The notes beneath the pieces were generated by a model. That model was not told where the DNA came from and made no database searches. It saw only the letters and a program-made list of their open reading frames with translations. A stretch of DNA of 64,000 bases, taken from Rhizophagus irregularis (taxonomy: Eukaryota > Glomeromycota > Glomeromycetes > Glomerales > Glomeraceae). The DNA lies in NCBI RefSeq assembly GCF_026210795.1, contig NC_089455.1, forward strand, positions 1,240,001 through 1,304,000. Reading direction: 5' to 3'. Below, piece after piece: positions 4,881-44,708 of the stretch. The number at the start of each line of letters is the position of its first letter. Position 1 is the stretch's first letter. The translations under genes were made by a program, and so were the position numbers.

Positions 4881-5132
4881 AATATTAAGGCCGATAAAAA
4901 AAATAGATTGATCAGCCAGATTATATCAATAGATTGCCGAAACTATAATATGTCATATGATATACTACACCAAAACACCGAAACAGTTTTGGCAATTTTG
5001 GCATTTCAGGTGATTTTGCGAAACTAGTTTTGGCAGTTTCGCATCTGTGGAGTTCTCCTGAGGGACCCGGATATCTAATATAAAGGTCATAATGGACTTT
5101 TGCCAAAAAACAGCCCCTTTTGCTGAAACTCG

Positions 5133-5211
5133 AAAAAATCGTTTTTTGTAAATATCTCGGCATCAAAATTGGACCGCTGGATGCCGAGATATTTACAAAA
5201 AACGATTTTTT
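5133..5211. repeat. Perfect 32-bp-arm hairpin
   Basis: Arms 5133-5164 and 5180-5211 are exact reverse complements (AAAAAATCGTTTTTTG... / ...CAAAAAACGATTTTTT) around a 15-base loop. Weaker complementarity extends outward, with GGATATC blocks near 5070 and 5265 and TAGTTT(T/C)GGC blocks near 5025 and 5300. This whole end of the hAT-type element is therefore a foldback unit. Confidence 0.85.
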
Positions 5212-6681
5212 GAGCCCTGAAAAATGGGCCAATCTGCCAAAAGTGTGACTTATGACCTGTTTTGGAGATATCCGGGGTCCTGTTCTGCCAAAACCCCCTA
5301 GTTTCGGCAAGCAATCTTAACAGGATCATGTGCTATTGTTTTGAATGATTCTAAACGCCAAAAAAGAGCAGTTTCATCACAGTTCCAGATATCTTTTAGT
5401 TCATATGCTTGAAGAATTTCTCGTAATTCAGCTCTCATTTGTAAAAGTTCATCAATAGGAGCACGTCGGGCTAGCCTTTTTTTCTACGTATGCAAATTAT
5501 TTCTCTCGTTTAAAGTTGCTTAAACTATCCTGCAGATGCTGAAAAGTTGGTGATATCAAGTAAGTTAGCATACTCTACTGCTTTTTGTTGGATAATAGGC
5601 CCATTTATAGTTAAATTTCTTGAAATTTGTTGATCAACCCAAATGCTCATTACTTCTTCTAGTTGTAGATAAACACTAGATTTTTCACAAAAATTATTTG
5701 CATTTGGTAAAGTGGCATCAATGGAAAGCCAATGTTCTGATCTTTTTAAAATATCGGAAACTGTGTTAGTGGAAATTCCATATTGTGCTGCTAATTGAAC
5801 ACCATTAAGTTTTTGATCTCTTTGTTTTTCGCAGAGTTCTTTCTTTTGAGCTAATATTAAAGATTTCTTTTTTTTATTATTCGTATCTTTGTTTTCTCTC
5901 ATGCTAAAGTATATTTTGAAAAAAAAACAGTGAGAAAAATTGTTTGCCTAATTAATAAATAATTGACATAATTATTTTGGACTCCAAAAAAATTAATACG
6001 TCATATCAAGATTTTTTAACTATAGTTGATCTAGAATAAAATCCGATTTACAAAATATCAAGATTTTACTAATAAAGTCTGATATATCAAGACTGTTTTA
6101 ATATAGATGATTTGGTTCCAGAAGAAAAATCTGAAATAGTGCCAAATCCGGTTTATTAAGGATCCGATTTATCGAGATTGCCTGTGTATATTTATAAACT
6201 TTACGCAAACGTGATATGTGAGTTATCCTAAAATTGACTGATTTACGCAAACTCAATTTATGGTTTAAAAAGTAATTTCATATAAACTCTACGCAAACCC
6301 GTTTGTGAGTTATATCAGTATTATTCGGGGTCCTGCTAGATTCCTTATGATATTCTTTGAAAAAATCAGTTTTGTAATTATCTCACGATTTATTAGTCCA
6401 ATTTTAATGATTTTTTTTTATTTTGCAGAGGGCGTGAAGAGCTACACGATAAAAAATTGTTCAACGAAATTGGATTACTGGGTCACAAAATAATCGCAAA
6501 AAACACATTTTTTTATTTTCTCTGAATTTGAATAGTGATTTTCACTACTTGTTATACAGATCACGAATTAAAAATTAATGTTTTTTATTAAAGTTTTAAA
6601 AATTTGAAATTTATCTTTGGGAATTTAGTATTCACATTTATATATAAAGTTGAAATTAAAGTCCAAAAGTATAAATATTTT

Positions 6682-39394: not shown

Positions 39395-39694
39395 TAGAGG
39401 TGCGTACGGATGAATCTGGTCAATCCGTCATCCGGATGATCACGTGACGGATCAATCCGGATTAAAAAAATCGGATCATCGGATTATCCGCAGATTGACC
39501 AGATTGATTATAATTCCGGCCAAAATTAAGTAATCGGCATGGAATTATCCTTTTAGGGTATGAGTAATGTTACACAAATCCAAAAAAAGGCAATTTTGTT
39601 TCCCAGCAAAAATGAAATTTTGGGTTTTACAATAATCCTAAAAAGGAAATTTTTCGCCGATCATTTAATTTCAGCCGGAATTTATTAGGGTGTG

Positions 39695-40510
39695 CGATAT
39701 TAGTCTAATCACAAATATAGTGCAATTATTATAGTAAACATCCTTATTAAGGATTTTTCTTGTCGATCATCTGTCGATCATTTTATAATTTATTAATATT
39801 TTAGAATCTTGGATTTAAATCATTTAAAAAATTTAAAAAAAGAGTTTTGGATTTAAAATTTTCTATTTAAAATCAGGTTATCGGTTAATTTACAAATATA
39901 ATGCATTACTATAGTGATCATTACTATAGATTTTTATTAATATATAATAAATTACTAGTAAAACTAAATTGCCCATAACTTTATATGCATGTTTAACTCT
40001 CCATTTTTAGCAACTGTTTATGATATTAAAATCAAGCGTACACATACTAATAGAGCCGGATTTCTTTGAAAGTACATATAAATTTAGTTGTAAAAATCAC
40101 GTTGTAATATTTCACAGCAATGTAAACTTTATTTTTTTTATTTTATTGTTCAAAAACCGGCTCTATTTCATTAAAATACGACATTTAAAATTTTCAAAAA
40201 AGTTGTTTTTGGAGCTAAGATCTACTTACTACAGCCAACAGAGATGTTTACGCTCAAAGAAAGTAAAACACTATCACTTAAAAAATGCATAATGCAGAGT
40301 GAATTTTTAGCTGAAACTTTCTCGAATACTCAAAATAATGTATTATAGCCTATTGATACTATTTAAATGTTGCAAATCATTTAAAATAATTCAAAACTTA
40401 GTAAACTTCTTTCAATTTAATGATCGTCAAAATGATCGACAAAAAAAATTACTTGAATAGGCCTCACAATATAGTGGTTTCTTATGTTTGTGATTAGGCC
40501 GAGATCATGC
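39695..40510. mobile_element. Foldback element nested in the 5.3-kb transposon
   Basis: The left arm (TCTAATCACAAATATAGTG ... TTGTCGATCATCTGTCGATCA) and the right arm (TGATCGTCAAAATGATCGACAA ... CATAAGAAACC region reading GTTTGTGATTAGGCC on the plus strand) are inverted copies. The centre is about 600 bp without a supported gene; the 90-codon frame at 40020-40292 shows no family features. Edges are approximate. Confidence 0.55.
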
Positions 40511-40982
40511 TTATCATCTCATAGTGGATCCTTAGAATTGGGCCAAATTTGCGGTCCCTTAAAATGGATTTATTCATATGATTTTTGGTGTAAAACAACG
40601 AGTGATCGATAAACTAAATAAGAACAAAAATAATGCCCGTATCTTAAAAAAATTTACATAGTAAAAACCGCGTCTAATACCATTGCTTTTCAAGCCATGC
40701 AACTTTTTAATGAGGCAATGTCCATTAAGGTATTTTAAATTATACTTAGTGCAATTTCGCTTTATTTTGTTTTTAGAGTCTGTTGTTTGTATTACACGTA
40801 TTAATATGTTTTTTATAATTTTCTTAGTCAAAACTCATAAATACAAAAGGAATTGGCTAATTAGACAATATTTTAGTTTGGGTAAGCGGTGTATTTAGCG
40901 TTAATATAATAATAAGAATGTTCTGTAGAGTATATTTAACGTTAATATTAATAAATTTTTTTATATTTCTAGTTAACACGTA

Positions 40983-41696
40983 ATGGAGCAAGTTCTAGCG
41001 ATCTTTCCTCTTCTACCCAACCACCTTCTCTGCCAAATTTTCTTTGTAAAGTATGCCTTCGCTCATTTCATTCAGAACGTGGCTTGTTACTACATCGCAA
41101 AACTATCAGTAAATATAATAGACCTACAGAACATATTGACATGTTGCCGTCACAAACTATTAAAGAATTTCAGGAAATTTTTGTATATTATATTCATAAA
41201 AAATTAAGCAAAAATCATACCAAGGCTGGGCGTCAAACGGTTTCTTTTCCCTGTACAAAGAGTCAGTTTTTTTCAATTTTTCGTGGATTTATTCATTCTT
41301 TTCAAGTTTCCAAGAGAGGTATTTACAAATGTTTTTTTCAAGGGAGTTGGGGGAAAAAAACAATTAAATTATATTTTTAATGACGAACAACGGTCAATAA
41401 AACATTATGACCAAGGACAAAAAACATACATAGTCTTACTAGATCAATCAAATGGATCGCGTAATTTTTCTTCTGAACACAATAGAGTAAAAACAAGCGA
41501 AACTAATCCTTTAGTTGTACTTGCTAATCAAAGAGCATTTGGCAAGAAAAATATAAAAAGAAAATCTTGTTACAAAAGAGGGGAAGTTATTATTGAGTGG
41601 AGGGAAAGAAAGGATCGTGAAATTAATGATAATTTTTGTTATGCTGGACGTATTACTATGAATTTTTATATATCTCAAATTAGAAGTCTAAATTGA
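40983..41696 (+). pseudogene. Accessory C2H2-type protein of the 5.3-kb transposon, frameshifted
   Basis: Plus strand, convergent with the transposase (57 bp between ends). One frame from about 40985 has Ser-rich residues, then a partial zinc finger CKVCLRSFHSERGLLLH, whose second His is not at the usual spacing, then a Lys/His-rich region. A frame change near 41330 leads into YDQGQKTYIVLLDQSNG, a basic segment and RGEVIIEWRER ... NFYISQIRSLN before the stop at 41696. It is probably a DNA-binding partner of the transposase, judging from the finger and the location. The family is not recognised. Confidence 0.55.
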
Positions 41697-41752
41697 TCAT
41701 TTGGAAATTTAAATATTGGTTTGTTTAGAAAAATAAAATGTGAAATTTTATT

Positions 41753-44055
41753 TTAAATTTGAACTCTATTAGGTTTAATTTTTTTATTGATAATTCTAAT
41801 TTTTTGAGGTCTATCACAAATAAAAGAAATATTATCAGATAATTCATAAAGTGATCTGTTTTCTTCTTCAAGAATTTCTACTATTGCAGCCTTAGAATTA
41901 ACAAGCTTGCCTCCATCTTTCATAGTTTTGCGAAAAAAAAATGATACTTGCATATGATTCTTCTTTTCAACTGGAGAACAGGAAAAAGATTTAATACCCC
42001 ATTTATTATATTTTTCCATAAATTCCCATATGTGCCATACTAATACATGCATATATGGAGTGATATCAACAGGTCGATAAAGGCCTTTAATAAAATCAGA
42101 ATCTTCAGGATTTCCAATTGAAGGAGTAAGAAAATAATTAAGCCATGCTTTAGCAGCTGATTGAAATTCTATAGGATCAGTATATTCATTTTTTAAAGCA
42201 CTATAAAGATCATTGAAATCATCCCATAATTTTCGTATCACCTTTGCTCGAGTAGGTTCTAGAATTGTTTCTAAGTTAAAATTACGTAATACTTTAAGTT
42301 TTTCTTGTTCCATAAGCGAAGTATATGACCATTTGTTGGAATCTCTTTCTTGCCAAAATTGAAAGCGAACACCAATACGCTGCATTTCTTTAATAATAAC
42401 TTCACGTGCTATATCAAAAAATCCTGATTCAATTACCTCATATATTACTAAGCTCCAAAGTCTATCGGTAATTCTTAACATAACGTGTAATTCATCAACT
42501 AAATAATTTTCTATTTCAATCATATCAAACAATGGCTTTTTATGATGACCTGAATAAAAGGTATAATTATTTCTCAGATTATTCATATTTTTTGAGATTG
42601 TCCAATTAGCATCTAAATCACTATGTTGATTCTTTTTAATTAAACACCAAGGACAAAAATAGTTACTTGTTGGAGAATTAAATCCTAAACAGGTAATTAA
42701 AAACTTCCAATCAGAAGAAAAATATAATTCAAATTTCCAATGTACTGTACATTACCAATAGTTAGTCCTTGATTTTTTAGCTGCCATAATTCTTCTCTTA
42801 ATAACCTCGTAGTTATATCCAAAGTATTATATTCTTCAGACCCAGGATAAAGAATAAGAGTGTAATGATATTCAGGGGAAAAAAGAACTTTTTTATGGTT
42901 AAGAATTGCAAATGTAATCATAACATGCTTAACCTTTCGGCTAACATTTCTTCCATCCCCTGAAATTCTAATTGAAATAATAGGTTGTGATGAATTTAAA
43001 ATATTTTTTCTAACTAAACTTGGTATTAGAAATATTAAAATTTCTTTAATACTTCGAACTCCTGCTTTACCCACTGAATTAATAACTGTTTCTACAATAT
43101 TTTCATCCATAATATGTGGTACTTCATCAGGATTCACTGCTGCTGTTGCTTCAATATTAATAATTTTAATTTTAACATTTTGTTCCATTAAATTGTTAAT
43201 AAAGACTTTTTGCTCAGATATTGCATTTTCTTTTGGTAAATTTGGCTCAATTGCCGTAAGATATCTATATCCATCACGCGAAATTCTGCTTTTATCCATT
43301 GCTCTTACAATTGCAACTTCTTTTTTATGTTTTAAAACTTGATTTTCTTTTCCATAATAGATATCATATCTTTTATCTTTAACGCTAAATTCTATTGATT
43401 TCAATAACGGAACATCTTCTGAAAGATAATAGTTGTTGGCAATTTCTGAAAATTGTTCTGACACTTTAGATGATATCTTCGTTGCTCGTTTTGTCAATCC
43501 AGAAGTTGTCATCTCATTAACAGGCTTCAAAATCTTTGTGTGTGGTTTGACTGATTTCGTTTCTCGATATTCTTTTAATTTATTAAGTTGTAATCCAAAA
43601 AGTAAAATTCCTGATGTTTTGGCATTACTTTCGGTAAATTTCTATAGAAAAATTATAAATTAATGAAATATTTAAATATACAAATTTAATTATAACCACT
43701 TTACCTTATGTAATAAATCAGCAGCATTGGTAGCTGACGACTTAGAAAAAACTTGCTCACTAAAATTTTCACCATATTGTATACAATACAAAGGTTTGTT
43801 GTCTTGATATGTAATTATACATTGAATTACCTTGTTTTCATTTCCGCGTCCCCACTTTGTTTGTATTTTGTAATCATCAGGAATAGGATAACAGTTTGGT
43901 GCACGAGTAACTTGAAGAATCTTTTTATCTGGGTATTTTCCTACTGTAATTATTTTATAGGTAAAACTCCGATTAACTATTCCCTTTTCATTCCTCTGTT
44001 TATAGATAATAGTGTCATCTTCTGGGTAATTGCCAATTTTCTCAATTATTACCAT
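41753..44055 (-). pseudogene. DDE-type transposase candidate of the 5.3-kb element, one frameshift
   Basis: Exons 44055-43705 and 43641 onward, with a good intron between (GTAAAG...TTCTATAG). The frame is intact to about 42716, where one extra base breaks it. It resumes at once with SSDWKFL and runs to 41753, about 745 residues in all. Motif order: SIRISGDGRNV (Asp at 42955-42957), SSDWKF (Asp at 42710-42712), CPWC about 18 residues later, SGHHKKPLFDMI, then DELHVMLRITD (Glu near 42491). D...D with a Cys-x2-Cys/His insertion before an acidic third residue is the layout of hAT, RAG1/Transib and KDZ transposases. The sequence is not one I can place in a named superfamily. Only one clear lesion, so it is young. 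Confidence 0.65.
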
Positions 44056-44708
44056 TGTAAAAAAATAAAAGTAAACTATAAACGATATTTTAAAAAAAAT
44101 TTTTTACGTGCATTTTGCCATAGATCGATCATCTTAAATGTACATTTTGTTACACGTATAATAGATCGTCAAAATTAAATATATCAAAAATAGGTACAAC
44201 ACGATTATTTTTTTAAAATATTATTTAATCAAATTAAAAATAAATATTAAATATTTTAAACGAAAAAATAAAAATAGTTGCGGAATTTTCGGTTATTAGC
44301 CGGTAGTGTCAAATTGATTGACCGTCGCTACATGCACTATATGATTGGTCTACTAATTTGGGGTTATACCAAAAAATTGGGGTTAGGGTATAGATCCGCG
44401 GATATGCCCCAGGAATTTATGATTAGGTATTTAATTGTTGTCACGTGACGCACGGGTATGTCGATCATTTCCATTTTTGGCGATACCCGTTCCACAAAAA
44501 ACCAGTTTTTCTAAATTTAGTTTCCGGTCGTGTAACATAAAATTTCCTAAAAAGGAAATTTTTTTGTCGATCCCGTATAGGATTGATCGGATATCCGGTC
44601 ATCCATCCGGTCTATTTGACGGATTCATCTGATCAATCCGAATCCGCCTATTAGACGGATTGATCCTAGGATGACCGGATTGACCAGATTCAGAGCCTAC
44701 CTCTAAAC

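Follow-up and report, generated by a model that had tools for sequence, protein, structure and literature searches.

A two-gene transposon of Rhizophagus irregularis that duplicates one base of target DNA and its probable affinity to the CMCT transposases

We analysed a 64,000-nucleotide stretch of the Rhizophagus irregularis genome (contig NC_089455.1, positions 1,240,001 to 1,304,000, hereafter the window; G+C 21-37% in 2-kb steps), together with copies found by scanning the genome (146.7 Mb, 32 contigs). Within two other small mobile elements, the window carries a decayed copy of a two-gene DNA transposon that duplicates a single base on insertion. There is every appearance of a decayed cut-and-paste element, its transposase very probably being a distant member of the CMCT (CACTA/EnSpm-Mirage-Chapaev-Transib) clade in which a D/D/E core is combined with a predicted zinc-binding module. 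On balance, we also favour the view that the family is an undescribed lineage of RAG1/CACTA type at superfamily level, with a near-constant C2H2 partner and a stagger of one base pair, below the 2-5 bp given for the clade in one survey (Kojima 2025, PMC12730594).

Element ends and target duplication

At least 128 pieces of the genome matched the C-terminal open reading frame (ORF) of the transposase (121 of 239 candidates scored), a multiplicity that rules out chance, and at least 70 transposase loci were recovered across subfamilies; since scoring covered part of the candidates, every copy count is a minimum. Near-identical pairs on different contigs stopped matching at the same points or a few bases apart (L005/L006, 98.6% identity; L007/L008, 99.1%; L009/L010, 97.8%; over 3.6-3.9 kb), and a fourth pair (L011/L012, 94.7%) did not define both ends clearly. 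Since such pairs, with open frames, lie on different contigs, part of the spread of the family is recent. The ends of the element are CATAT(C/G)NGC. Both were found at 23 of 31 loci, 19 by the strict pattern and four when one or two end mismatches were allowed, while at the remaining eight (L001, L003, L011, L012, L019, L020, L028, L029) at least one end was damaged, unrecognised or beyond the stretch retrieved for that locus. The 23 copies with both ends span 3,404-5,560 bp, and 22 of them bear CATAT...ATATG on both sides, the exception being L031, whose degraded right end was picked by hand from weak candidates. When one element was used to look for derivatives with internal deletions, with 40 of 82 candidates scored, truncated copies came up but no clear family of short derivatives.

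The outermost flanking bases were identical in direct orientation in all 23 copies with both ends, where flank composition gives a chance of matching of 0.293 per copy (29.3%); the next five flank offsets agreed in 9, 7, 12, 8 and 4 of the 23. All four bases occur as the duplicated base. A longer duplication was considered and rejected, as a perfect 2-bp match was present in only three of these copies and a 3-bp match in one. For a fresh test, the ends of nine further copies were predicted beforehand and only those stretches were fetched; both ends were found in seven, with a matching flank base in five, so that the one-base duplication is seen in 28 of the 30 copies with both ends. For three insertions (L033, L010 and L023) the surrounding repeat also occurs in uninterrupted form, which reveals the empty site, and every empty site compared was one base shorter at the junction (4/4, 5/5 and 6/6, respectively); the L023 comparison shows a second length difference, at a stretch of A residues close by. 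The first-pass annotation of the window had drawn CGGAT-rich inverted ends around the two genes and proposed collecting copies to define ends and target duplication: the drawn ends did not survive that comparison, and the CATAT(C/G)NGC ends and one-base duplication emerged from it. Among the matches listed by a literature search on the phrase 1-bp target site duplication, the sole phrase match concerned LINE-1, and among those listed for "single base pair duplication" none was about transposons by its title.

Some of the repeats around these insertions are recognisable in their own right. The flanks of L023, together with L034-L039, belong to a many-copy repeat with a tRNA-like stretch (GGTTCGATTCC), perhaps a short interspersed nuclear element, and those of L033, together with L040-L043, to a tandem satellite (units of ~120 bp) that occurs on many contigs and has taken up one element.

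Transposase motifs and the C2H2 partner

Much of what had been read from the letters of the window held on comparison with the copies: a DNA transposon of two genes whose DDE candidate is of RNase H type, the motif order SGDGR, SSDWK, CPWC, DELH along the minus strand, an insertion of Cys/His residues like that of RAG1, and two Asp codons at exactly the positions that had been given (Table 1). The transposase frame is indeed broken, exon 2 of the window copy being divided into two overlapping frames with long ORFs of 332 and 314 aa, and it is open throughout in several copies elsewhere in the genome (for example L009, L010, L011, L012 and L024).

The motifs follow the layout D-81-D-19-CxxC-DxLH-HxxxxH-E. 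In L009, the step from the first Asp (D1) to the second (D2) is 81, that from D2 to the first Cys 19 and that from the second Cys to the His of DELH 53, followed by H-x4-H and E. All 21 aligned copies share D1 (SGDGR), D2 (SSDWK), the two Cys residues of CPWC and, within DELH, the D and the H. In the 19 copies that extend into the later part, HxxxxH is likewise invariant, and so are E and N in VEKKNH. The same set is kept in the three distant-subfamily loci that were read (L033, L049 and L050), where CxxC is CLYC or CLFC. The Glu of DELH (near 42491), previously put forward as the third acid, is Lys in 3 of the 21 copies, and this lack of conservation led us to reject it. The Glu of VEKKNH is probably the catalytic acid; its alignment rests on order and spacing, because the part from DELH onward matches CACTA weakly by itself. 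The register of these motifs suggests an RNase H fold and a zinc site. The distant subfamily (the above loci and L051) has ~30-40% protein identity and more interrupted reading frames.

Pfam searches with 21 transposase members (E up to 5) matched 14 families, none of them a transposase, in line with the first-pass annotation, although HMMER filters drop most weak matches of this kind. A search of the transposase profile against all of PDB (E up to 10) listed six matches: a lysozyme (0.08), RAG1 (0.39), two prostaglandin receptors (0.65 and 0.71) and two RAG1 constructs (1.0). The RAG1 alignment is in register over D2 and the step to CxxC, with HxxxxH in a separate, still weaker stretch; we take the aligned RAG1 residues to be its catalytic Asp and zinc ligands.

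The transposase profile was also compared with CACTA/EnSpm proteins of the same genome. Of the nine loci offered for that alignment eight entered it, since in L062 no ORF got through the motif filter; L056 was excluded because its sequence repeats L057. Profile alignment with hhalign gave a score of 58.3 (probability 88%, E 2.8e-6) over 167 of 626 columns at 19% identity, with D2, CxxC and DELH/DxMH in register, against 26.3 for the best of 60 column shuffles, 18.4 for the reversed alignment and 16.0 for a four-protein MULE alignment. The part before D2 scored 36.6 alone, on the region of the PG motif, and in the alignment from DELH onward the first His of HxxxxH falls on a CACTA His. With a single CACTA sequence (E 0.0014, probability 17%), D1, the PG motif, D2 and CxxC were aligned. 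Outside this genome, 67 pattern matches in IMG/VR viral contigs and 42 in GTDB bacterial and archaeal contigs gave no confirmed relative, and PHROGs gave weak, scattered matches only.

A second gene, convergent with the transposase in the window, encodes a protein with a C2H2-type finger and falls there into two frames (40973-41380 and 41208-41696). Of 14 members, 12 had a finger match to the Pfam model zf-C2H2_4 and 10 to zf-C2H2 at E up to 1 (best E 7.7e-5, yet below the Pfam cut-off in the member shown), and the finger also matched zinc fingers in PDB with E down to 2e-7; the C-terminal part had no convincing match in Pfam or PDB. The second finger His is absent from its usual place in 11 of the 14 aligned members and kept in L012, L033 and L050, so most partner proteins may have a modified finger. 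A partner gene lies within 8 kb at 65 of 70 transposase loci, downstream and convergent at 53, upstream on the same strand at eight and upstream on the opposite strand at four; the 70 loci were compared with 87 of 138 partner matches, and five had no partner among those 87. The earlier expectation that the genes and the drawn inverted ends travel together holds for the two genes and fails for the ends, which also occur without them.

The position of the partner varies within the family. At L019, L020, L028, L029 and L030 the C2H2 gene lies several kb upstream of the transposase and is not convergent, and L030 holds both genes inside a single element of 5,560 bp whose ends are recognised. In a tree of 21 aligned loci, with arrangement labels set by hand, L029 not included and some deep branches weakly supported, the upstream arrangement is on two branches (L019/L020 and L028/L030), and L013, a convergent close relative of the window copy, stands beside the L019/L020 branch.

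Taken together, we propose that the transposase would have an RNase H-type core with acids D, D and E, interrupted by a zinc module made up of CxxC, the His of D-x-L-H and H-x4-H. This enzyme would excise the element, probably assisted by the C2H2 protein in binding to the CATAT(C/G)NGC ends. Both ends would then be joined to target DNA one base pair apart, and repair of joins so close together would duplicate a single base.

Three nested elements in the window

The region 39395-44705, taken in the first-pass annotation for one transposon, is a nest of three elements, with M1 outermost, M2 inside it and the two-gene element innermost (Table 1). M1 is a repeat of ~585 bp. The CGGAT-rich inverted ends are present (39398-39430 and 44676-44705) and two convergent genes do lie between them, but these ends are borne by the two halves of M1, an unrelated short repeat, and are not the boundaries of the element. 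The halves (query positions ~16-306 and 5033-5326, whole or partial) adjoin without genes at 25 other places (a count of rows), overlapping by 9 bp at 22 and by 8 bp at 3. M1 has TAGAGGT-type ends, which resemble hAT termini.

M2 is an inverted-repeat element of ~836 bp inserted in M1, and query positions 305-1127 (39684-40506) are found as a further repeat without genes at eight places. A separate copy, L004 (1490-2325), has inverted arms and a 9-bp duplication of its own, ATGGGATGT. The long inverted ends of M2, with TTGGGGTGTGCGATAT on one side, and its 9-bp duplications, GGAATTTAT and ATGGGATGT, are compatible with a MULE-type short element.

The two-gene element entered M2 near the end of M2, and 40527-44406 is what is left of it, with 98.0% identity to the C9 copy. 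Elsewhere, close gene copies are bordered by other sequence and carry CATAT ends of their own. At 44406 the intact CATATCCGCGGATC end abuts the final five bases of M2, whereas at the low-coordinate end the terminal ~10 bp are lost. There, ~20 bp of other, unexplained sequence (40507-40526) replaces the terminal 10 bp of the element and part of M2, which might reflect a failed excision repaired with filler DNA.

Table 1. Features of the nested region, in window coordinates.
Feature	Position	Strand	Basis
M1, left half; not part of the two-gene transposon	39395..39685	.	Genome copy comparison
M2 insertion, 9-bp target duplication GGAATTTAT, left copy	39677..39685	.	Copy comparison and window letters
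Most of M2, host of the two-gene element	39686..40516	.	Copy matches end at 40506; up to 40516 uncertain
Two-gene transposon, actual element	40527..44406	-	98% C9 copy with both ends (L013 1128-5015), end comparison and window letters
Convergent partner gene: a single C2H2-type finger at the N terminus, then a C-terminal domain of unknown fold	40983..41696	+	ORFs, Pfam, PDB, alignment
Transposase exon 2, second open frame	41753..42751	-	ORFs, copies, alignment
Probable catalytic Glu (VEKKNH)	41966-41968	-	Exon 2 second frame
HxxxxH His	42047-42049 and 42032-42034	-	Exon 2 second frame
His of DELH	42485-42487	-	Exon 2 second frame
CPWC Cys	42653-42655 and 42644-42646	-	Exon 2 second frame
Predicted catalytic Asp 2 (SSDWK)	42710-42712	-	Exon 2 second frame
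Transposase exon 2, first open frame; predicted catalytic Asp 1 at 42955-42957 (SGDGR)	42697..43641	-	ORFs and copies
Probable 63-bp intron, GTAAAG...TATAG	43642..43704	-	Splice signals and relatives
Transposase exon 1, 117 codons, MVIIEKIGNYP...AADLLHK; splicing predicted	43705..44055	-	ORF list; similar exon in relatives
Intact terminal inverted repeat CATATCCGCGGATC, minus-strand reading	44393..44406	-	End comparison and window letters
M2, far end, last 5 bp CCCCA	44407..44411	.	Window letters
M1, right half	44412..44705	.	Genome copy comparison
M2 insertion, 9-bp target duplication GGAATTTAT, right copy	44412..44420	.	Copy comparison and window letters

Alternative explanations and relation to known systems

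Several results weigh against a CMCT transposase that duplicates one base. In two of the seven fresh-test copies the flanking bases are A at one end and G at the other; both copies were counted as misses, and mutation could account for the mismatch. The RAG1 match is not significant alone (E 0.39), and the lysozyme entry scores better; the part from DELH onward is weak against CACTA when aligned by itself (score 22.4); a second single CACTA sequence gave E 0.02 with D2 out of register; the comparison with a local Plavaka fragment produced no real match (probability 0.1%), and a global hhalign run yielded no usable alignment. Moreover, the one-base duplication (28 of 30 copies, and the empty sites) is outside the range reported for CMCT elements (2-5 bp, PMC12730594).

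With regard to novelty only, the family could be an ordinary diverged member of a named CMCT lineage (Transib, EnSpm/CACTA, Plavaka, ESTA or Lanisha) hidden from Pfam, which we regard as unlikely, if far from negligible. The Cys/His motifs and CA..TG ends of the clade are present, and RAG1, a Transib descendant, is the only relevant PDB match. The duplications do not fit, being 3 bp in fungal EnSpm families, 2-3 bp in Plavaka, TA in ESTA and 5 bp in Transib, and no transposase was among the Pfam families matched. A genome scan with the Pfam RAG1 model (E up to 1) was also empty, which says little, as the controls yielded nothing either. The main threat to novelty comes from a 2024 curation, based on profiles of named superfamilies, which reports Transib in R. 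irregularis (PMC11075540), and that Transib may be this two-gene family.

Other readings depart further from the evidence. A preference for inserting between two identical bases, with no duplication, would likewise leave identical flanking bases, but the empty sites are one base shorter than the filled ones at three independent insertions and G and C pairs are seen besides A and T, so we consider it highly improbable. A shade less probable still is a KDZ, hAT or MULE-type transposase: these enzymes also have an insertion before the last acid, yet none of the 21 members had such a Pfam match, hhalign gave a probability of 0.1% against four MULE proteins of this genome, and the duplications of these groups are longer (4-10 bp for MuDR/IS256, 5-8 bp for hAT, 7-8 bp for Kyakuja and Zisupton). 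We give least credence to the single 5.3-kb transposon bounded by the CGGAT-rich inverted ends. Those ends flank both genes in the window; however, the M1 halves adjoin elsewhere without the genes, sharing the 9 (or 8) bp that are duplicated here, the sequence at 39684-40506 is a third repeat found alone, and close gene copies have other flanks and CATAT ends of their own.

If the transposase is a distant CMCT enzyme with a one-base stagger, it would be of interest beyond this genome. Because the geometry of the transposase complex determines how far apart its two strand transfers occur, a RAG1/CACTA-type enzyme of this kind would be a natural test of how that geometry changes. Two-protein systems include RAG1-RAG2 and En/Spm, and the family adds another two-gene partnership, of a transposase and a C2H2 protein. 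It would also classify one multicopy family in a genome type in which, according to the 2024 curation (PMC11075540), two-thirds of transposable elements are unclassified.

The first-pass annotation could not place the element in a named superfamily, and its motifs are those of the CMCT clade. As described by Kojima 2025 (PMC12730594), this clade comprises EnSpm/CACTA, Mirage, Chapaev, Transib with RAG1, Plavaka, ESTA and Lanisha; its transposases combine the acids D, D and E with two motifs, CxxC and HxxxxH, that follow the second D and precede the E, and with a third His (2C and 3H are named in the Fig. 4 legend), and the termini are mostly 5'-CA..TG-3'. The present family has CPWC between the second D and the last E (21/21), H-x4-H ahead of that E (the 19 copies reaching there), CA..TG termini (22/23) and a third His, that of DELH (21/21), which aligns with CACTA DxMH and is probably the His of the legend. 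Unlike the clade, it matches no Pfam transposase model and has a nearly constant C2H2 partner gene.

Among individual lineages, RAG1/Transib resembles the family in the PDB match, with the step from D to CxxC and HxxxxH in register. Transib ends begin with CAC and its duplication is 5 bp, in contrast to the CATAT ends and 1 bp here, and the partner here is a C2H2 protein, not a RAG2-like one. CACTA/EnSpm proteins of this genome (PF02992) share the PG motif, D2, CxxC and DxMH/DxLH in the profile match, whereas fungal families have CAC..GTG ends and a 3-bp duplication; among the PF02992 places listed, none overlaps the two-gene loci by eye. Plavaka differs in its ends (TGT..ACA or CATCA..TGATG) and 2-3 bp duplication, and ESTA duplicates TA, compared with 1 bp of any base in this family; Plavaka and hAT/KDZ were also absent from the Pfam matches of the 21 members, and MULE proteins from any credible profile match. 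The PHIS group (Harbinger, ISL2EU, Spy, IS5 and others) has, to our knowledge, no CxxC/HxxxxH module, and the family has no Pfam match to it. Its duplications, none or 1-4 bp in one account (PMC10045372), include the one-base length seen here, which is therefore not unheard of among DDE transposases. Given the motifs and ends of the CMCT clade and a duplication outside its range, the transposase is therefore most likely a divergent branch of that clade, forming a lineage of its own.

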